Notes: generated from the sequence alone by a model not told the origin. A stretch of 64,000 nucleotides of DNA from Myxococcaceae bacterium (GCA_004173515.1 SECN01000029.1:1-64000), one strand, 5' to 3'; shown: positions 11,520 through 24,863, counted from the stretch's first letter. Translations and numbers: made by a program.

Positions 11520-12509
11520 ATGACGATTCCAGCGCAGGAACACCGGGGCCGGCTCGAAGGGGAGGATGTGCGCTGTGGGGAAGCGCCGTTCGAGGGGGGA
11601 TGGGTGCGGTTGACGCTCCGGGTGGACGCGGAGACCCGGGCCATCACGGCGGCGGCGTGGGAGGCCCCGGAGCGCGTGGGCGCGGGGCATCCGCTGGCGG
11701 CGTGCCTGGAGTCGCTGTGCCAGAACGCCATGGGCATCGGGGTGGACGTGTTCCTGCGCTTCGACGACTTCCACCTGCGGGCGGGGTGTCCGGACGGGAT
11801 GGAATCCACGGAGGAAGCGGGGGTGGCGGTGCGGGCGTTCCGGTCCGCCTTCAGCCCGTTCCATCCCCGGGCCACGGGGCCTGCGTACCTGTCGAGCGGT
11901 CTGGTGCTGGCGAAGCTTCCACGCGGAGTGAAAGCGGAGCTGGTGGAGCCCGGCTTCTACTTCGCGCACTACTACCGCGAGGAGCTGTGGGAGGCGGCGG
12001 CGGAGGAGGCCCGCAGGGGCGGCGTGCTGGGGCCGCGAGCGGCGTGCGCGTACATCGACGCGCTGCTAGAGAAGGCGGACGACGCGGTGGAGCTGGACTG
12101 GCCCGTGGAAGAGGGCACGGCGACGTGGAGCTGGCTGACGCGTGTCTGTCTTCCCACGGTGGCGGGGGGCGCGGAGCGGGTCCGGATGTTGTTGGAGGGC
12201 GGGTACGGGGGCGCGAGCGGGACGGAGAGCTTCCCCTTCGGCCACCTGGACGGAGGGCCCTGGCATCCCCCAGAGGGACTGAGCCAACCGGAAGGCGTGG
12301 GGCACGCGGAGTTCATCATCGACGACCTGGAGCACCTGCTGCCGGAGCTGCCGAAGCACGGGGTGCTGCTGGCCGCGCCGCGCTGGATGGCGGTGGGACA
12401 GACGCGGGATTCGCCCGCGCTGCGCAGGGCGGGAATCACGCGGGAGGAGGCCGGTGGGTTTGGCCTGTTCAACGCGGCCGCGCATGACATGGATGAAGAG
12501 GATGATTGA
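11520..12509 (+). CDS. Hypothetical protein
   Basis: I do not recognise this 329-residue protein. It is acidic, lacks a signal peptide or membrane segment, and has composition and codon use typical of the surrounding genes. The segment around VDVFLRFDDFHLRAG and the later GFYFAHYYREELWEAAAEEARR suggest a mixed alpha/beta fold. The start at 11520 is preferred because AAAGGA precedes it and upstream in-frame sequence overlaps the divergent MnmC-like gene. The 3' end overlaps the start of the next gene by 17 bases, so the two may be co-transcribed. Confidence 0.65.
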   Translation: MTIPAQEHRGRLEGEDVRCGEAPFEGGWVRLTLRVDAETRAITAAAWEAPERVGAGHPLAACLESLCQNAMGIGVDVFLRFDDFHLRAGCPDGMESTEEAGVAVRAFRSAFSPFHPRATGPAYLSSGLVLAKLPRGVKAELVEPGFYFAHYYREELWEAAAEEARRGGVLGPRAACAYIDALLEKADDAVELDWPVEEGTATWSWLTRVCLPTVAGGAERVRMLLEGGYGGASGTESFPFGHLDGGPWHPPEGLSQPEGVGHAEFIIDDLEHLLPELPKHGVLLAAPRWMAVGQTRDSPALRRAGITREEAGGFGLFNAAAHDMDEEDD

Positions 12510-13248
12510 GGGCTTGTGCCGGTGGCTGGGTGGGCTGGCTGCCCTGCTCTGCCTGTCCTGTGCTTCGGGACCGGGCCAGTACAAACAGACCGTGGACTCC
12601 GCGACGAACGCCTGTCTTCGCAATCCTGCGTGCTACACGCAGACGGGCAATGACGCCGTCCTGCCCTGGGCGGGACGTGCGGCGAGGGCAGCAGCGACCG
12701 CCCACACCACCTTGCGCGTCCTGGAGGCCGCGGACGTGGCCCGGATCGAGGCCCTGCTGGTGAAGTGCGCGGAGGAGGCGCACTTCAAGATCAACGAGCG
12801 GGAGTACGGAGAAGGAAACATCCCGGAGGATGCCGAATGCATGCGAGAGGTCGGCAAGGACAAATCAGGAAAACCCATCCTCCGGCAGGCGGAACTGGGC
12901 CGCATGAAACACGAGCGTGCTTTCAAGTGCGTCCAGCAGGAGATCCTCCGACTCTTTCCCGAGAACATCTCCATCGAACCGCGCTATGGGCCCAATGGCA
13001 AACCTGGTGGATTTTCATTAACGGACCGTCGGACGGGCTCCATGAAGCCGGATGTCGCCATTCACGCGACAGGCCAGCCAGGACAGGTCCAGTGCATCTA
13101 CGACTTCAAGTTTCCATGCACCAAGGCCGGCAAGGAGAATCCAGGCGAAAACCCCGCCACGCAAGAACAGATGAGTCGCTACAAAGAACTCGGAGGAAAG
13201 TGCAATCCCGCCATTGTCACGCCTCAGTTGGGAGTCATTCGTGAGTAA
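12493..13248 (+). CDS. Probable lipoprotein toxin with VRR-NUC/PD-(D/E)XK-like nuclease end
   Basis: This 251-residue protein starts with a signal peptide (KR, then LGGLAALLCLSCASG). The cysteine at 23 resembles a lipobox, although position -3 is Cys instead of Leu. The middle (about 30-160) is Cys-rich and unassigned. The C-terminal 80 residues carry a PD-(D/E)XK pattern: KPDVAI at 185-190, IYDFKF at 202-207 (D204-x-K206) and a downstream Gln/Tyr helix (QEQMSRYKELGG), as in VRR-NUC nucleases. It overlaps by 8 bases with a DUF3396 gene, the known immunity partner family of VRR-NUC effectors. A secreted or surface-displayed antibacterial nuclease is inferred, possibly of the SitA kind exchanged between myxobacterial outer membranes. 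GC is visibly lower than in neighbouring genes, which fits transfer. Confidence 0.7.
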   Translation: MKRMIEGLCRWLGGLAALLCLSCASGPGQYKQTVDSATNACLRNPACYTQTGNDAVLPWAGRAARAAATAHTTLRVLEAADVARIEALLVKCAEEAHFKINEREYGEGNIPEDAECMREVGKDKSGKPILRQAELGRMKHERAFKCVQQEILRLFPENISIEPRYGPNGKPGGFSLTDRRTGSMKPDVAIHATGQPGQVQCIYDFKFPCTKAGKENPGENPATQEQMSRYKELGGKCNPAIVTPQLGVIRE

Positions 13249-14212
13249 ATACTCCTCATCGGAACACTTCGCCGAGCAGCTCCCACGGGTCCAGCTCGTG
13301 GTGCGAATCGTCTTCTACCTGCCGCATGACCACAGGGCATTGGCACCACACATGGGACGTCTGCTCGATATCTACCTCCAACACATTGGAGATAGCGGCG
13401 ACAAACTGACAACGGGCTACAACCCCGACATCCATGAGGGTCATTTCCCCCTTACAGCCTCCGCGTGGGGAACCCTCCGCAAGCACCTGGAGACTCCTCA
13501 CTTTGAGTTTCTGGATGACATGGACGAGGACTCCACCTGGTTTTGGATCTTGACCAAGCGAGGGTTTGACACCTGGAGCCATTTGGCCGGGGATACGTTT
13601 GATCCCTCGGGTTATGAATTCAGTTACCGCGCCCGGTTGCCCTGGCGTGAGATATCGCCCGAACACAGTAGACTGAGCGTCAGCGTCCCGATTCGTTTCC
13701 TCACAGACCACGACCCCAGCAAGGTGCGAGAACTCGCCTTGGCACTCGCGGAGCTTCTTCCCTTCGCGACGGGCCATGCCGGACTGTCGCTCTCCTTTAC
13801 CCGGGGTCGCTCGAGAATCCTCCCCACCATCAAGGATGAGCTGATCCGGCATCCAGGCTGGGACGTACCGAACACAAGCGCCATCTTGGACCTGGGTGAC
13901 CAGATCGACGGCGTGCACTGGTTGAACTTCCTGGGCCCCTCCGTGCTCGAAGCCGCAGGCGGCGCCCAGACCCTTCGCTCGCGACTGAGCGAGCCAGACA
14001 CCACGGTCCAGGAACTCACCGGCGGACGTGCCCTGATCAGCCTGGGGGCCGCCCCATTGGCGGGCGACACGAAGCTGGAGCAACCGCTGCTGGCATACCG
14101 TGAACTCGCCCGGGTCCTGGAGCCCTGGCTCCAACCCTTCTACCCCGTCGACACCTGGTACCACTTCACCGAAGAAGAAACCCGTCGGTGGTGGCGCCGC
14201 TTCCTCGACTGA
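13241..14212 (+). CDS. DUF3396 (TsiV-like) immunity protein
   Basis: The 323-residue protein fits the DUF3396/type VI immunity (TsiV) family in length and pattern: an N-terminal LVVRIVFYLPHDHR strand, a central HAGLSLSFT, and a C-terminal W-rich end (YHFTEEETRRWWRRFLD). Such proteins neutralise VRR-NUC nuclease effectors. The start is the GTG at 13241 because GGGAG lies six bases upstream; it overlaps the toxin stop as GTGAGTAA, so the two proteins would be made together. There is no signal peptide, so protection would act in the cytoplasm, where a DNA-cutting toxin would act. Like the toxin gene it has lower GC than the surroundings. Confidence 0.75.
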   Translation: MSKYSSSEHFAEQLPRVQLVVRIVFYLPHDHRALAPHMGRLLDIYLQHIGDSGDKLTTGYNPDIHEGHFPLTASAWGTLRKHLETPHFEFLDDMDEDSTWFWILTKRGFDTWSHLAGDTFDPSGYEFSYRARLPWREISPEHSRLSVSVPIRFLTDHDPSKVRELALALAELLPFATGHAGLSLSFTRGRSRILPTIKDELIRHPGWDVPNTSAILDLGDQIDGVHWLNFLGPSVLEAAGGAQTLRSRLSEPDTTVQELTGGRALISLGAAPLAGDTKLEQPLLAYRELARVLEPWLQPFYPVDTWYHFTEEETRRWWRRFLD

Positions 14213-15107: not shown

Positions 15108-18056
15108 ATGTCCAAGCAAGAGAAGGGCGCTCCTCCCGACTGTTTCGACTGTGAAGGTCAGCCCACCGAACGTCTCGTCGAGATGTTCGTGCGCATGACG
15201 CAGGAGAAGCGCATCCAGTTGGGCCAGACTCCCGCCGAGCGCTCCGTGTTCCGCAAGCTGCACGGCGTGGCGCATGGCCACTTCGAAGTCCTTCCCGGCG
15301 TGGACAAGAAGCTGCGGGCGGGCCTCTTCGCCCAGGACCGGCTGGAGGCCTGGGTGCGGTTCTCCAGCGACACCTCTCCCACCCTGCCCGACCTGGGCAG
15401 CACGCTGGGCGTGGGCATCAAGCTGTTCGGCGTGCCCGACTCGGACGGGCTGGGCGAGCCGGGAACCACCGCGGACTTCGTCCTCCAGAACTTCCCGCGC
15501 TTCTTCGTGCAGGACGCGAAGGCGATGTGTGAGTTCACCTATGCGGGCGTCGTCCTCAAGGACTACCCCGGCTATCTCAAACAGCATCCCGACACCCAGG
15601 CCGTGCTGGACGCGATGACGGCGCCGCAGGGCAGTGTCCTCACCACCACCTACTGGGCCATCCTCCCGTTCAAGCTGGGCAAGGAGGTGGTCAAATACAG
15701 ACTGGAGCCGGAGACCGCGCCCCAGAACGTGCCGGATGACGCCGCCGACTACCTGGCCACGGACATGGCCTACCGGCTTTCGCGGGACGGCTACCGCTTC
15801 CGGTTCATGATCCAGCGCCGCACCCATCCGTCCACCATGCCGCTGGACCGGGCCATGGATGACTGGTCGGAGAAGCAGAGCCCATTCGTGCAGCTCGCCA
15901 CCCTGGTGCTGCCCCGCCAGGACATCGGTGAGCGCGGGCAGGCCGACTACGGCCAGGGCCTGTCCTTCAACATCTGGCGCACCCCCGCGGAGAACGCACC
16001 GTCCGACGCGTCCTCCATCGCGGTGGTGCGCAAGGCGGTCTACGCCGCGGGTGCCGCGGCCCGGCACCGCGCCAATGGCCAGCCCCTGAAGGACGCCCCC
16101 GAACCCCGGCCCGTCGCCTCTCACCCCGGCGCCCGGCCCCCGACGCCGGACGACAGCATCGTGAAGGCGGTCATCTATCCGTCCATCGGCATTGCCCGCG
16201 TCGGCAGCAGCCCGGACGGGTACTTCATCGGGCCCGAGGTGACGGAGCCTCCCGCCGAGGACAAGGGCTTCTACCGGGACGCACAGGGGCGGCTGAAGCG
16301 GCAGGCGGCGCGCTTCCGCATCTATGGCGTCAACGCGGAGGGGCGCATCCTCCGGGAGTTGTCGGTGCCGAAGTCCGGCGCGAAGGTGCGCTGGTCCGTG
16401 CAACTGGCGAACACCAAGGCCGCCTGGTACGGCTTCCAGTTGGCGCTCGACATCCCCGAGGCGTCGTCCGCCCCGCCCTCCACGCTGCGCAACGCCGCCG
16501 TGGCGGACCGCTCGCGGCTGGCCATCACGCCCGCCGCGCAGTCCGTGCAGGGCATGAATGCCCGGCCCAAGCGCTTCGACGGCACCTTCATGGGCCTGCA
16601 GGTCCACCTGGGGGACATCCGCACCGACGAGAGCGGACGGCTGGTGGTGCTGGGCGGTCACGGCGTCTCCCGCTCGTATGACGGCACGTATGCCATCACC
16701 TTCGCGAACAACGAGGGCTGGCACGACGACGTGTCGGACGGCCCGGTCACCGCCGAGGTGGTGCTGGACGGAAAGCCGCTGGAGGTCGTCCCCGCCTGGG
16801 TCGTCGTGGCGCCGCCGAACTACGGGCCCCAGCGCAAGTCGGTCCGCACGATGTGGGACCTGATGCGCGACGTGGCCATTCACGCAAGGACCCTGGCCCC
16901 GCCAATGCGGCCGTCCTTCACCCACGACATCCTGCCCCTCTTCCAGCGCCTGGCCGGCCTGCAATGGGTCAACGCGGGCTTCGCCGCGGGCTTCGGCTGG
17001 AAGGGCATGTTCGACTTCACAGATCCGAAGGTGCTCGCGCGCCTGGGGGACCCGAGCCCGGCGGAGCGGGAGTACCGCCACGTGGTGGCGAACCAGTTCC
17101 GGAACTTCGCGAGGGATTCGTGGTCCCCCACGCCGTGGCCCTGGCTGTACGGCGACGCCATGAACATCCCGCCCGCGGAGACGCCCCGGCAGTACGCGAC
17201 GCTGACGGACACCCAGTTGTTCATGCTCCAACTGTGGTCGATGGGCGAGTTCGTGGCCGACCATGATCCGAACCGCAAGCCGCCGACCCGAATCGCGGAG
17301 GTGCCGCTGGAGGAACAGGGAGACATGCTCACCCGCGCGGCGCTGGAGTTCTGCCTGGCGGACGCATTCCATCCCGGCTGCGAGATGACCTGGCCCATGC
17401 GTCAGGCTTCGATGTACATGCAGCCCTTCCGGCTGGCGCACCAGCGGCCCGGCTGGAAGGAGCCGGGCCTGGGCGAGGTGCTCACGTCCGACAGCGTCAC
17501 CATCACCAACGGTCCGCTCCACGGCCAGCCGCCCGGAGGGCTTACCCGGTGGATGGCCGTGCCCTGGCAGACGGACACGGCGAGCTGCCGCTCCGGCTAC
17601 GACAAGACCTACGACCCCTACGTTCCGTCCTTCTGGCCGGCGCGGGTCCCCAACGAAGTCCTCACGGAGCAGAACTACAAGATCGTCATGGACGCGAACA
17701 AGCCGCTGGCCGAACGCCGCGCCGCCTTCGCCAACCGCGCCGCCTGGATCAACCCGCTGGGCGCGACGAGCTACACCGACCAGATCAACAACATGGTCCG
17801 GCACTTCGACCACCTGGGCGTCGTCGAGGCGAGGAAGGGTCCGACGGACACCGACGCCTTCCCGGCGGTCATCGAAGTGGAGGACCAGCACAAGCCCATC
17901 AAGGACGTCATCCCCACCGACGATCGGCTGAAGGCGCATGGGACGGCGACGGGGAGCGCGGTGGGGTCGCATCACGGCGAGGCGCCCTCCGCGGCGAAGG
18001 TGGACGTGAGCGGCATCGAGAAGGTACGCCGCTTCCCGGGCGGCCTGCGGCGCTGA
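15108..18056 (+). CDS. Fusion of a catalase-like domain and a LodA-type tryptophylquinone oxidase
   Basis: The first roughly 310 residues resemble the catalase superfamily (y4iL-like group): a distal-His region KLHGVAHGHFEV, VRFSSDTSP, the DFVLQNFPRFFV strand and a late RKAVY that fits the RxxxY proximal haem ligand. After a Pro-rich linker (about 330-350) residues 355-982 match LodA/GoxA amino-acid oxidases: SIVKAVIYPSIGIARVGSSP, a Cys in GCEMTWPMR and, 62 residues later, a Trp in VPWQTDTASC. These are the likely partners of the cysteine-tryptophylquinone cross-link (Cys516/Trp581 in LodA, 65 apart). LodA converts L-lysine, O2 and water to an aldehyde, ammonia and H2O2, so the attached catalase could remove its own peroxide. 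No signal peptide is seen. The flavoprotein needed for maturation follows 7 bases downstream. The substrate amino acid is not deducible. Confidence 0.85.
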   Translation: MSKQEKGAPPDCFDCEGQPTERLVEMFVRMTQEKRIQLGQTPAERSVFRKLHGVAHGHFEVLPGVDKKLRAGLFAQDRLEAWVRFSSDTSPTLPDLGSTLGVGIKLFGVPDSDGLGEPGTTADFVLQNFPRFFVQDAKAMCEFTYAGVVLKDYPGYLKQHPDTQAVLDAMTAPQGSVLTTTYWAILPFKLGKEVVKYRLEPETAPQNVPDDAADYLATDMAYRLSRDGYRFRFMIQRRTHPSTMPLDRAMDDWSEKQSPFVQLATLVLPRQDIGERGQADYGQGLSFNIWRTPAENAPSDASSIAVVRKAVYAAGAAARHRANGQPLKDAPEPRPVASHPGARPPTPDDSIVKAVIYPSIGIARVGSSPDGYFIGPEVTEPPAEDKGFYRDAQGRLKRQAARFRIYGVNAEGRILRELSVPKSGAKVRWSVQLANTKAAWYGFQLALDIPEASSAPPSTLRNAAVADRSRLAITPAAQSVQGMNARPKRFDGTFMGLQVHLGDIRTDESGRLVVLGGHGVSRSYDGTYAITFANNEGWHDDVSDGPVTAEVVLDGKPLEVVPAWVVVAPPNYGPQRKSVRTMWDLMRDVAIHARTLAPPMRPSFTHDILPLFQRLAGLQWVNAGFAAGFGWKGMFDFTDPKVLARLGDPSPAEREYRHVVANQFRNFARDSWSPTPWPWLYGDAMNIPPAETPRQYATLTDTQLFMLQLWSMGEFVADHDPNRKPPTRIAEVPLEEQGDMLTRAALEFCLADAFHPGCEMTWPMRQASMYMQPFRLAHQRPGWKEPGLGEVLTSDSVTITNGPLHGQPPGGLTRWMAVPWQTDTASCRSGYDKTYDPYVPSFWPARVPNEVLTEQNYKIVMDANKPLAERRAAFANRAAWINPLGATSYTDQINNMVRHFDHLGVVEARKGPTDTDAFPAVIEVEDQHKPIKDVIPTDDRLKAHGTATGSAVGSHHGEAPSAAKVDVSGIEKVRRFPGGLRR

Positions 18057-18063
18057 GTTCTGG

Positions 18064-19164
18064 ATGCTGCCCGCCGACGTCGTCATCGTGGGCGCCGGTC
18101 CCGCCGGAGCCACCGCCGCGCTGAACCTCGCGCCGTTCCGCCGGGTGTTGCTGGTGGACCGGAGGCCCGAGCCCACCGACCGCATCGGTGAGTCCCTGGC
18201 TCCGGCCGCGCGTCGACTCTTGGGTGACATGGGGTTGTGGGCGGACTTCCTCGCGGACGGTCACAGCCCCTGTCACGTCGCGCGCAGCCGCTGGGGAACG
18301 CAGGCCCTGGCGGAGCAGGACGCGCTCGCCAACCTGGATGGACCGGGCTGGCACCTGGACCGGCGCCGGTTCGAGGAACGCTTGCGACACACCGCCGTGG
18401 CCCGGGGAGCGGCCCTGCTCGCGCCCGCCTCGCCCGTGGGGCTGGAGCGCGCGGGGGACGGCTGGCGTCTGCGATTGGAGCATGGCGGCCGGGTGCTGGA
18501 CGTGGCGACGCGGTGGATCATCGACGCGGGCGGTCGCGCGTCGGGGTTGCTCAAGCCCTTCGGCGCCGAGCGGCAGGCCCGGGACCGGTTGATCTGTGGT
18601 TGGCTTCACGGCACGAGGACGGAGGGAAGCACCGGGGGCGGAATGACATACACGGAGTCCGCGCCCGACGGCTGGTGGTACACCGCGCCCCTGCCGGACG
18701 GCCGCCGGGTGCTGGCCTGGCACACGGACGCGGACCTTCCCGCAGCGGAGGTCCTGCGCACCGCGTCCGGCCTGCTGGGCCACGCGGCGCGCTCCTCCAC
18801 CCTGGGCGCGCAGCTTTCGGACTCGCGCTTCGAGGACACGGTCGCGCCCGGCGTCATCACCGCCCACGGCTCCGTCCTGGCCTCACCGGTGGGCGAGGGC
18901 TGGATCGCCGTCGGGGATGCGGCGCTGAGCTTCGATCCCCTCTCTTCCCAGGGCCTGTTCAATGCCCTGTTCACCGGGCTCGCCGCGGCGGAGGCCACGG
19001 ACCGGGCACTCGCCGGCGACCCGTCCGCGACCCACGACTACGCCGGGACGCTGCGCGACATCGACGCAGCGTACCGGCGCCATCTGGCGGCCTGGTATGG
19101 GTTGGAGCGCCGCTGGCCCGAACAGGAGTTCTGGCGGCGCCGCGCACCCCGTCCGGCGCCCTGA
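18064..19164 (+). CDS. LodB/GoxB-like FAD-dependent maturation oxidoreductase
   Basis: The 366-residue protein is an FAD monooxygenase-type flavoprotein: GAGPAGATAALNL near the N-terminus binds the ADP part of FAD, VGDAALSFDPLSSQGLFNAL near residue 280 is the second FAD motif, and RIGESLAPAARRLL lies between. In lod/gox operons the flavoprotein directly downstream of the oxidase is required to form the cysteine-tryptophylquinone cofactor. Position (7 bases after the oxidase stop) and family both support that role. The ATG at 18064 has no strong ribosome site, consistent with translational coupling to the upstream gene. Confidence 0.85.
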   Translation: MLPADVVIVGAGPAGATAALNLAPFRRVLLVDRRPEPTDRIGESLAPAARRLLGDMGLWADFLADGHSPCHVARSRWGTQALAEQDALANLDGPGWHLDRRRFEERLRHTAVARGAALLAPASPVGLERAGDGWRLRLEHGGRVLDVATRWIIDAGGRASGLLKPFGAERQARDRLICGWLHGTRTEGSTGGGMTYTESAPDGWWYTAPLPDGRRVLAWHTDADLPAAEVLRTASGLLGHAARSSTLGAQLSDSRFEDTVAPGVITAHGSVLASPVGEGWIAVGDAALSFDPLSSQGLFNALFTGLAAAEATDRALAGDPSATHDYAGTLRDIDAAYRRHLAAWYGLERRWPEQEFWRRRAPRPAP

Positions 19165-21131: not shown

Positions 21132-21554
21132 AACCTATCCCTCGTACCAGAAACGACTCAACGTTTGAACCTGAGCAACACAACGCCCCGTTCCAGACAA
21201 GCAATGAGCGGCACGTGCCCATGTCGGACGTCCGATTGCTTCGTGCGAGCAAGCCAGATACGCCGCCTTTGACTCCATGCTCGATGTCTGTTTGACCTTG
21301 GGCTTGCCGGGTTTGTCGTAAGCGAAGCCGCATGCACACCCTGGAACTGAAGCAGGAGCAGAAGAGGACGTTCTTGCCACCCCGAAGGCGGCCTCACCGT
21401 GTAGGTCCTCCTGCGGCACCGCGAGGATCAATCGTGGAGGATTTTTCTCACGCGTTGCCCGTGGACCACCCCGCTGGTAAGGCCCTCCCAGGTCGTTCAC
21501 GGCGGGCGGACGCGGTCGCGTCCGTTCCGGCCCTCGCGGATCGGAGTGGGTTCG

Positions 21555-24500
21555 ATGCGGTCACAGCACGCTGTCTGGAGCAGGGTCCTGGTGTTCGTAG
21601 CGGGCTTGAGTCTTCTGGCCTGCAACACGAAGGAGCACCCCACCGGCGAGGGCGCCACGCGCGCCCCACTCGCCTCGCCCCCTGGCTGGGCCGCCACCGC
21701 GCCCATGGCCACTCCGCGCGCGCAGCATGCGGCGATCCTGCTTCCCGCTGGCGAACTCCTGGTCGTCAACGGGGTCAACCGGCTGGGCTTCGTGCGCGCG
21801 GCGCAACGCTTCAATCCGGCGACGGGAGCGTGGGCCAGCGCGGGCGATCCCGGCATCCAGGGCAATGTCACCCAGGGCGTGCTGCTCCCCAGCGGCCAGG
21901 TGTTCATCATGAGCGATGGGTCCGTGTCGGGCCGCCTCTACGACCCCGCGTCGGGCTCGTGGTCCGCCACGGGCAACATGGCGCAGACCCGGGGACTCCC
22001 CACCGTCACCCTGCTGAACTCGGGACAGGTGCTGGTCGCGGGCGGGACCGGAACCGGCGGCGCCCGGCTCACCTCCGCCGAACTGTACGACCCCGCGACC
22101 AACACGTTCCTCCCCACGGGCGCCATGACCCTGGGCCGGGGCGCGCACGTCGCCACCCTGCTGAAGGACGGGCGGGTGCTCGCGGTGAGCGGCTTCAACC
22201 AGGCAGGCGAAGTGCCCGGCGCGGACCTCTATGACCCCGCGACCGGCACCTGGTCCGCCGCGGCGGCCCCCCTGGTCCCCCGGCACTACGCCACCAGCAC
22301 CCTGCTGCCGGATGGACGCGTGCTGCTCGCGGGCGGCTTCGCCAGCGGTGGAGTCACCCCCCAGTCGGAAATCTATGATCCGGCGGCCAACACCTGGACC
22401 GCCACCGCGAGCCTCGCGTTCGCGCGCTCGGGCCACTCGGCCACGCTGCTGCCCGATGGCCGGGTCCTGGTCACCGGAGGTTCCTCCAGCACCGGCGCAG
22501 CCCCGCAGGTCGTCTCGGAAGCCTATGACCCCGCCACGGGCATCTGGTCCGCTGCGGGTTCGATGATCATCGGCCGCGAGAACCACACGGCGACGCTGCT
22601 GCCCACCGGCAAGGTGCTCGTCGCGGGCGGATACACCAGCGCCCCCAGCCTCACCTTCTACGCGGAGACGGAACTCTACGATCCCGCCGTCAACCGCTGG
22701 TCCTCCGCTGGCGCCATGGGCACGCCCCGGATCGACCCGCTCGTCGTGCTGCTGCCCACGGGCAGGGTGCTCGTCGCGGGAGGCCGCGCGGCAGGCGGCC
22801 CGTCGGCGGTGTCGGAGGTGTATGACCGGACGACCAACGCGTGGACCCCCACGCCGGATCTCGCCTCGCCCCGCGAGCGCGCCACCGGAACCCTCCTGCC
22901 CTCGGGTCAGGTGCTGGTCGTGGGCGGTCGCAATGGCACCAACTCGGTGAGCTCCGCCGAGCGCTACAACCCCACCACCAACGTCTGGGACCCGGCGGTG
23001 TCGCTGCCTGGTCCCCGCCACCTGCACACCGCCACGCTCCTCCCCGATGGCCGGGTGCTGGTGGTCGGAGGTCAGCTCAACACGACGGTTTTCGGCACCG
23101 CGGAGCTGTACGACCCCGCCGCCAACACCTGGACCCCGGCGGCCCCCCTCACCCTGGCCCGTGGCGGACACTCCGCCGTGCTGCTGCCCACCGGGCGCGT
23201 GCTCGTCGTGGGAGGCCATGACAACGGCGGCGCGGAGACCGCCACCGCGGAGCTGTACGACCCCGCGACCAACACCTGGGCCCCGGCCGCGGCGCTCGCC
23301 CAGGCCCGCGACGAGTTCACGTTGACGCTGCTGCCTTCCGGCCAGGTCCTGGCGGCGGCGGGCATCTCCAGCTTCGTGGAGCTCACGTCCGCGGAAGTCT
23401 ATGACCCCACCTCGAACACGTGGACCGCGACCGGGACGCTCGCACAGGCGCGCTGGCACCACACGGCCTCGCTGCTGCCCTCCGGCAAGGTGCTGGTCGC
23501 GGGCGGTCTGACCGTCAATGGCGACTACGCGGACTCGGCGGAACTCTACGATCCGACGACCCGCACCTGGAGCACCACCAATGCGCCCGCCGTGACGGGC
23601 GGACTCATCTCCTCCGCGCTCGCCTCGGGCGAGGTGCTCGTCGCGGGAGGCTCGGGCGCCCCCAACGCCCAGTTGTTCGAGGGCACCGGCGCCCAGCCCG
23701 CGTGGAAGCCGGTGGTGGACAACCCGGCGACGCTGGTGGCCGCCTGCCCCACCGTGCTCGAAGGCCTCCTGTTCCGGGGCATCTCCGGCGCGAGCGGCGG
23801 CAGCATCCAGGACTCCTCCACCGACTTCCCCCTCGTGCGCCTGAAGGCCGCGGAGGGTGGACGTCTCTGGACGCTCCCCAGCTCCAACTTCTCCTCCACC
23901 CGCGCGACGGTGACCGTGCCCGCCGGCACGCCCCTGGGCACCTACGCGCTGTCCGTCCTCGCCAACGCCATCCCCGGCGGACGCATGGTGCAGGTGGTCG
24001 CCAACCAGGCGCCCACGGCGGTGGATCAGGCGGTCTCCTCGTCGGTGGACACGCCCGCGGCCCTCATCCTCACCGGGACCGACCCGGATGTGGGGCAGGT
24101 GTTGAGCTTCACCGTCGTCACCCCGCCCCAGCACGGCACGCTGAGCGGCACGCCGCCCAACCTCACGTACACCCCGACGGCGGGCTACGTGGGCGACGAC
24201 AGCTTCACCTTCCGGGCCCGGGACTGCGTCCAGGACAGCAACGTGGCCACGGTGTCCCTCACCGTCACGGCCGGACCGCTGCCGGGCATCACCTGCCCCT
24301 CGGACGTCACCACCGAAGCGACGGACGCGAATGGGGCCGTCGTGATGTATCCGCCCGCCGTTCCGGATCAGGCGGGCGCCCTGGTGGACTACTCGTTGGA
24401 TTCGGGCGACCGGTTCCCCGTGGGCACCACGACCGTCACCGCGACGCTGCCCAGCTCCCAGGTCTCGTGCTCGTTCCGCGTCATCGTGCGGGACACCGTC

Positions 24501-24863
24501 GCGCCCGTCGTGAGCTGCCCGGCGGACGTGACGGTGACGTCCAATGACGCCGCGGGCGCGCCGGTGACGTTCGAGCCCACGGCCACGGACGCGGTGTCGT
24601 CGCCGCCGTCCATCACCTCCTCGCCTCCGTCGGGCAGCGCCTTCAGGGCGGGTGACACGCGGGTCACCGTGACCGCCACGGACGCGGCGGGCAATTCCTC
24701 TCAATGCACGTTCCAGGTCCGGGTCCAGGCGACGGTGGTGGAGATCGCCGGCGGTGGCTGCCAGAGCACCGGCGAAGGCGCTCTCTCCGCGCTGGCGCTC
24801 CTCGCGGGCCTTGCTTCATGGGGCGGCCTGCGTCGCCGCCGCACCGTCAGCGGGGTGCACTGA
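21555..24863 (+). CDS. Kelch-repeat / HYR-domain surface lipoprotein with MYXO-CTERM-like tail
   Basis: The 1102-residue protein has a lipoprotein signal ending in LSLLAC, about fourteen kelch repeats (about 48-710, each with LLPxGxVLVxGG and ELYDPATNTW-type strands), one cadherin-like module (about 820-905, HGTLSG and YTPTAGYVGDDSFTF), two HYR modules (about 910-1060, each beginning with a CPxDVT motif) and a C-terminal hydrophobic stretch preceded by GGGCQSTG and ended by RRRR, similar to MYXO-CTERM. The start at 21555 follows GGAG by 8 bases. It is a paralogue of the product of 3290-7735 and lies 3 bases upstream of an OmpA-family gene, so the two probably form an envelope operon. Confidence 0.85.
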   Translation: MRSQHAVWSRVLVFVAGLSLLACNTKEHPTGEGATRAPLASPPGWAATAPMATPRAQHAAILLPAGELLVVNGVNRLGFVRAAQRFNPATGAWASAGDPGIQGNVTQGVLLPSGQVFIMSDGSVSGRLYDPASGSWSATGNMAQTRGLPTVTLLNSGQVLVAGGTGTGGARLTSAELYDPATNTFLPTGAMTLGRGAHVATLLKDGRVLAVSGFNQAGEVPGADLYDPATGTWSAAAAPLVPRHYATSTLLPDGRVLLAGGFASGGVTPQSEIYDPAANTWTATASLAFARSGHSATLLPDGRVLVTGGSSSTGAAPQVVSEAYDPATGIWSAAGSMIIGRENHTATLLPTGKVLVAGGYTSAPSLTFYAETELYDPAVNRWSSAGAMGTPRIDPLVVLLPTGRVLVAGGRAAGGPSAVSEVYDRTTNAWTPTPDLASPRERATGTLLPSGQVLVVGGRNGTNSVSSAERYNPTTNVWDPAVSLPGPRHLHTATLLPDGRVLVVGGQLNTTVFGTAELYDPAANTWTPAAPLTLARGGHSAVLLPTGRVLVVGGHDNGGAETATAELYDPATNTWAPAAALAQARDEFTLTLLPSGQVLAAAGISSFVELTSAEVYDPTSNTWTATGTLAQARWHHTASLLPSGKVLVAGGLTVNGDYADSAELYDPTTRTWSTTNAPAVTGGLISSALASGEVLVAGGSGAPNAQLFEGTGAQPAWKPVVDNPATLVAACPTVLEGLLFRGISGASGGSIQDSSTDFPLVRLKAAEGGRLWTLPSSNFSSTRATVTVPAGTPLGTYALSVLANAIPGGRMVQVVANQAPTAVDQAVSSSVDTPAALILTGTDPDVGQVLSFTVVTPPQHGTLSGTPPNLTYTPTAGYVGDDSFTFRARDCVQDSNVATVSLTVTAGPLPGITCPSDVTTEATDANGAVVMYPPAVPDQAGALVDYSLDSGDRFPVGTTTVTATLPSSQVSCSFRVIVRDTVAPVVSCPADVTVTSNDAAGAPVTFEPTATDAVSSPPSITSSPPSGSAFRAGDTRVTVTATDAAGNSSQCTFQVRVQATVVEIAGGGCQSTGEGALSALALLAGLASWGGLRRRRTVSGVH

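Follow-up and report, generated by a model that had tools for sequence, protein, structure and literature searches.

What does a catalase-like domain do when it sits on the same polypeptide as an enzyme that would make hydrogen peroxide? The question is raised by a 64,000-nucleotide stretch of DNA from a Myxococcaceae bacterium (GCA_004173515.1, SECN01000029.1:1-64000; hereafter the window), in which a 982-residue open reading frame (ORF) encodes a LodA/GoxA-type protein fused to an N-terminal catalase-like domain, and a flavoprotein ORF starts 7 bases 3' of it. An earlier note on this locus had proposed an oxidase fused to its own catalase-like domain, with removal of the peroxide at source, and had offered use of the peroxide by the haem domain as a peroxygenase as the alternative. 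Our comparison of the sequences points instead to a haem module that lacks the usual catalase activity and would most likely use LodA-made peroxide as an oxidant, in a peroxygenase- or peroxidase-like manner; we hold this reading tentatively, at a probability of about 0.42.

The N-terminus of the protein is homologous to catalases, as judged weakly by its single sequence and clearly by profile and predicted fold. The Pfam catalase model PF00199 matches it with E 0.019 and 14.5 bits, below the gathering cut-off of 25. Compared with the PDB, a profile of 41 related N-terminal domains matched 3e4w, a 33-kDa catalase-related protein of M. avium, with E 2e-12, plus many true catalases, and a profile of the LodA-linked domains found y4iL over positions 28-323, that is, over the whole domain. 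AlphaFold2 predicted residues 1-346 with a mean predicted local distance difference test (pLDDT) score of 93.6; a Foldseek search with this model matched 3e4y (E 1.4e-15), and VIA-align superposed it on solved catalases with Z 27.3 over 275 residues at a root-mean-square deviation of 2.8. The domain has its fold and haem-anchoring residues in common with the y4iL-like proteins (cd08152; y4iL of pNGR234a, locus L145) and the M. avium protein (3e4w/3e4y). It shares the core fold, the R-x3-Y proximal ligand and the propionate arginines with the haem catalases of PF00199, including the host's own (L143 and L144), from which it differs in scoring below the family cut-off and in having neither the distal His nor the distal Asn.

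Catalase residues were mapped onto the domain by profile alignments and by alignment with the host catalase L144. We take Arg72, His75, Arg112, Ser114, Val116, Asn148, Phe153, Arg354, Tyr358 and Arg365 of human catalase to correspond to R45, F48, R84, S86, D88, Q127, F132, R308, Y312 and R319, respectively. The haem anchor (R45, R84, R308, Y312 and R319) is invariant in LodA-linked domains across phyla, at N-domain identities of about 46-64%, and haem binding by the N-terminal domain is likely because these proximal and propionate-binding residues do not vary. One of the two motifs that the earlier note had picked out as haem residues, RKAVY, thus holds, as it contains the invariant R308-x3-Y312; the other, AHGHFEV, was rejected, since H56 and H58 are variable (position 56 is more often Tyr) and the true distal place is F48.

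It is on the distal side that the LodA-linked domains depart from catalases. Position 48 is Phe in all 85 readable fused copies and in all three readable copies encoded by an adjacent gene. Among 26 relatives not linked to LodA, a set drawn mostly from one bacterial family together with five plasmid loci, the same position is His in 23 of the 24 readable copies, including y4iL and the host's own catalase, and Gly in the remaining one; the sequences behind both counts are related rather than independent. Asp88 and Gln127 occur in every readable LodA-linked copy and in none of the 26 unlinked relatives. Together with F48 these are the only profile columns that are fixed in the LodA-linked set and absent from the unlinked one, and all three are distal-pocket positions. 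The host's true catalase has His, Val and Asn at these places, and the y4iL-like proteins retain the distal His (motif GQHFKQHG in y4iL), whereas the LodA-linked domain has Phe48, Asp88 and Gln127. H52 is unlikely to serve as a substitute distal His: in y4iL a His at 52 coexists with the one at 48, and the copies of adjacent type carry Gln there. Decay into a pseudo-domain is also unlikely, as the haem anchor is 100% conserved and three distal residues are fixed; the combination speaks for a pocket that has been re-tooled, not one that has decayed. A separate catalase-like gene (L159, 5925-6863) has Gly at the distal position and Asp in place of the ligand Tyr in a frame that is still open, and is likely a haem-less member.

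Table 1. Features of the fused gene and its neighbour, in window coordinates. CTQ, cysteine tryptophylquinone.
Feature	Position	Strand	Remarks
LodA/GoxA-family CTQ oxidase fused to a catalase-fold domain at its N-terminus	15108..18056	+	982-residue ORF; Pfam domains
Catalase-fold (y4iL-like) domain	15156..16106	+	Residues about 17-333; profile, AlphaFold2, Foldseek, VIA
F48, at the place of the catalytic distal His (human H75)	15249..15251	+	Phe in 85/85 fused, 3/3 adjacent
D88, at the place of catalase Val116, distal channel	15369..15371	+	Asp in all readable LodA-linked copies
Q127, at the place of catalase distal Asn148	15486..15488	+	Gln in every readable LodA-linked copy
RKAVY (R308-x3-Y312), with the Tyr that is the proximal haem ligand and the Arg belonging to it	16029..16043	+	Invariant in LodA-linked copies; 25/26 unlinked
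R319, haem-propionate Arg together with R45 and R84 (human R365, R72, R112)	16062..16064	+	Invariant
LodA_N domain (PF17990)	16176..16808	+	Residues 357-567; E about 2e-82, over cut-off
LodA_C domain (PF18417), with H755, D823, C827 and W843	17175..17636	+	Residues 690-843; E 6e-44, over cut-off
LodB/GoxB-like maturation flavoprotein	18064..19164	+	366 residues; GoxB model E 6e-76, LodB E 2e-60

The remainder of the protein belongs to the LodA/GoxA family, to judge from its domains, its CTQ residues and the adjoining LodB-like gene. C827 and W843, the CTQ precursor pair, are invariant in 41 diverse relatives and align with GoxA of known structure, and D823 (GoxA D678) and H755 (GoxA H583) are equally invariant in this set. 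In common with GoxA (glycine oxidase) and LodA (lysine 6-oxidase), two CTQ quinoproteins with solved structures, the protein has LodA_N, LodA_C, the CTQ Cys and Trp, the Asp, and a His at the H583 place; it differs from both in its additional N-terminal domain and in scoring far below their equivalog cut-offs (437 bits against 750 for GoxA, NF038173; 182 against 600 for LodA, NF038172). It is nearer to GoxA than to LodA, and, with scores so far short of either, no substrate is predicted for it. The flavoprotein is likewise under both the GoxB and the LodB equivalog cut-offs despite the E values in Table 1. A search for a substrate hint in the genes around 80 fused loci found nothing conserved besides the lodB-like gene, which is present at 68 of them. 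We read the locus as a two-gene operon that encodes a LodA/GoxA-family enzyme of group III together with its maturase. The host is a Corallococcus-type myxobacterium with a genome of 10.2 Mb; the nearest named relative of the fused protein, from Corallococcus llansteffanensis, is 90% identical. In these respects the earlier note was accurate: the gene coordinates are exactly as given, the LodA half is complete with its CTQ Cys and Trp, a LodB-like maturation flavoprotein lies beside the oxidase, and the N-terminal domain is of the catalase superfamily.

The architecture itself has been known since 2015, when Campillo-Brocal et al. (PMC4417212) tabulated N-terminal catalase-like domains in 21 of 168 LodA-like proteins, all of them in the uncharacterised group III. 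These authors assigned the domains to pfam00199/cd08152 and cautioned that catalase activity is not to be taken for granted in domains of this kind; they did not look at distal haem residues. The present protein does not differ from group III in domain order, in size (about 1000 residues) or in the LodB-like gene downstream, and its residues 1-973 can be aligned, with 50% identity, to a protein of Tenacibaculum ovolyticum DSM 18103 (L082), a genome listed in Table 3 of that study. A search of the papers available to us on the H54F catalase mutant discussed below, on y4iL function and on CTQ-dependent oxidases with haem returned nothing beyond the same paper. What is new here is the haem-pocket residue evidence, namely a haem anchor that is kept and a catalytic distal pair replaced in a fixed manner in the LodA-linked set alone, and the suggestion that the fusion sets this protein apart from known LodA proteins was too strong, even if no fused protein has been characterised.

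A scan of one genome per species yielded 246 relatives, of which the best 80 were examined; relatives were ranked on agreement with the entire protein, a criterion biased towards fusions. Nearly all of these 80 are full-length fusions, from Pseudomonadota, Bacteroidota, Actinomycetota, Cyanobacteriota, Bacillota and Myxococcota. Dozens of genomes share the fusion, so it is real rather than an artefact of assembly or chance. The earlier note had called for a count of LodA homologues with the N-terminal domain; within the host's own bacterial family, LodA_N occurs in 36 of 96 genomes at about 56 places, of which seven carry the fusion (in one case inferred, as a contig break intervenes) and two have a separate domain gene just upstream. 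In a rapidly built tree of the LodA half, several forks of which are open, the fused label needs four changes and unfused members lie inside, so that a single fused clade was rejected. In an N-domain tree built without the motif columns, the Phe copies cluster without forming one clean clade (four changes, weak branches), and this tree neither shows nor excludes a single origin of Phe48. Given the changes on the LodA tree and the existence of close relatives without the domain, the domain has been gained or lost more than once.

Several other arrangements were seen. The host genome carries a second, unfused LodA-family gene with an open frame of 701 residues (L002; G000:C880:50426-51388). On a Sinorhizobium medicae plasmid (L146, 4504-7432), a separate catalase-like gene is followed by a LodA split over three frames and then by a flavoprotein. 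Solo Phe48-type copies with no intact LodA adjoining occur at L154 (6028-7005), L155 (8902-9879) and L158 (6296-7261); a broken LodA remnant follows the solo domain in L158, and the L154 and L155 genomes carry an unfused LodA elsewhere.

From these observations a course of events can be proposed. By analogy with the family, the LodB-like flavoprotein would help to turn C827 and W843 into CTQ. Oxidation of an amino acid or other small amine by the LodA half would then reduce O2 to H2O2. The N-terminal domain, a y4iL-type catalase fold with its full haem anchor, would bind haem; its distal pocket has been remade in a single constant pattern, with His replaced by Phe48, Asn by Gln127 and Val by Asp88. 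This haem domain would meet the peroxide made by LodA and use it as an oxidant, in the manner of a peroxygenase or peroxidase, rather than dismutate it, and Asp88, Gln127 or both would stand in for the lost acid-base His. Carboxylates act as acid-base groups in chloroperoxidase and in the fungal unspecific peroxygenases. That Asp88 and Gln127 are invariant lends some support to the peroxygenase alternative of the earlier note, and the link between the domain and a peroxide-making half, fused or adjacent, in many phyla is consistent with it. Coral allene oxide synthase-lipoxygenase (3dy5; Z 26.1) also has a catalase-fold domain N-terminal to the maker of its peroxide substrate; its partner is a lipoxygenase that yields organic hydroperoxides, and it offers at most a working analogy.

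A number of points weigh against a peroxide-using role. None of the members is known to give a haem spectrum or to show activity, and a Phe in the distal pocket would also suit a non-catalytic haem. The full-length model is weaker than that of the domain (pLDDT 80, predicted template modelling score 0.65), and the arrangement of the two halves is for that reason not fixed by it. Close LodA relatives without the N-domain exist in Rhizobium jaguaris (61% identity, L152) and Bradyrhizobium barranii (57%, L164), so the LodA half can do without the domain, which is then not essential to the oxidase; conversely, solo Phe48-type copies persist where LodA has decayed or is not nearby (L154, L155, L158).

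The domain might instead be a non-catalytic haem or pseudo-catalase module, which would bind haem, or keep no more than the fold, for stability, oligomerisation or ligand sensing, with no peroxide chemistry. Such a module is doubtful in itself and nearly as likely as the peroxide-using role. The catalytic His and Asn are lost, close unfused relatives manage without the domain, and the PDB entry 3hb6 bears the title 'Inactive mutant H54F of Proteus mirabilis catalase', which, as far as a title goes, describes a Phe at the distal His place as inactivating. In that laboratory mutant the Phe was placed by design, whereas in the LodA-linked domain it is natural, fixed and accompanied by Asp88 and Gln127. 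A mere structural remnant need not fix its distal side, and here three distal positions, including an acidic residue of buried type, are fixed alongside an invariant haem anchor.

A true catalase that destroys the H2O2 from the LodA half, as the earlier note had favoured, would fit the catalase fold, the proximal Tyr and Arg, and the fusion to a peroxide producer. It does not fit the pocket. Classical peroxide dismutation is unlikely because every readable LodA-linked copy has Phe48 and Gln127 where catalases have the distal His and Asn, and since these catalytic residues are replaced throughout the group, the domain is probably not a self-scavenging catalase. Going by the 3hb6 title, a real catalase with the corresponding His-to-Phe change is inactive, and the host already holds two real catalases (L143 and L144). 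We regard removal of peroxide at source as improbable.

Two further roles for the haem are less likely than those in which it uses peroxide or is non-catalytic. It might accept electrons from reduced CTQ, making the protein a dehydrogenase as in quinohaemoprotein amine dehydrogenase; haem and CTQ would lie in one chain, and a distal side that is dry and lined with Phe would be suited to passing electrons, but no cytochrome-like partner is conserved next door at the fused loci, the N-domain is dispensable, and the Tyr-ligated haem b of catalase folds is usually of low potential, all of which leave this a poor prospect. Help from the haem domain to LodB in oxidising or cross-linking the CTQ Trp and Cys, by analogy with MauG in the maturation of tryptophan tryptophylquinone, would suit a fused domain that is always linked to the LodA and LodB system, but is hardly probable given that the close relatives L152 and L164 mature with LodB only.

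Unlinked y4iL-like genes lie beside peroxidase genes in two places, next to a di-haem cytochrome c peroxidase gene on pNGR234a (L145, 2444-5849) and next to a gene for a peroxidase family protein in Paracoccus (L148, 2465-5049), which hints at what the parent family does. Elsewhere in the window, a TsiV-type immunity protein (PF11876, E 6e-44) is encoded at 13214-14212 (+), directly preceded by a gene for a 264-residue protein at 12454-13248 (+) that has no Pfam match and by eye looks like a nuclease-type effector (PDVAI..CIYDFKF); the two are a possible type VI effector-immunity pair. A large secreted-looking protein with kelch repeats and HYR domains, encoded at 21546-24863 (+), ends in a Cys-rich, hydrophobic and Arg-containing tail that by eye resembles those of the myxobacterial sorting type.

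LodA proteins of the fused group III kind occur widely but are uncharacterised. Automated annotation would assign them a self-detoxification of peroxide, which the fixed change of catalytic residues makes probably wrong. The most specific form of the reading preferred here, a natural catalase-fold peroxygenase that has Phe, Asp and Gln in place of the distal His-Asn machinery and is fed H2O2 by a quinone-cofactor oxidase on the same chain, is unlikely on present evidence; if true, it would be a self-sufficient two-cofactor (haem and CTQ) oxygenase, a type of enzyme that has yet to be described. With Phe for the distal His and a source of peroxide beside it, this natural catalase fold makes a clear test possible: should the domain use peroxide, it would be a peroxygenase that feeds itself and interests chemists, and should it not, it would be a clean case of a catalase fold in non-catalytic use.

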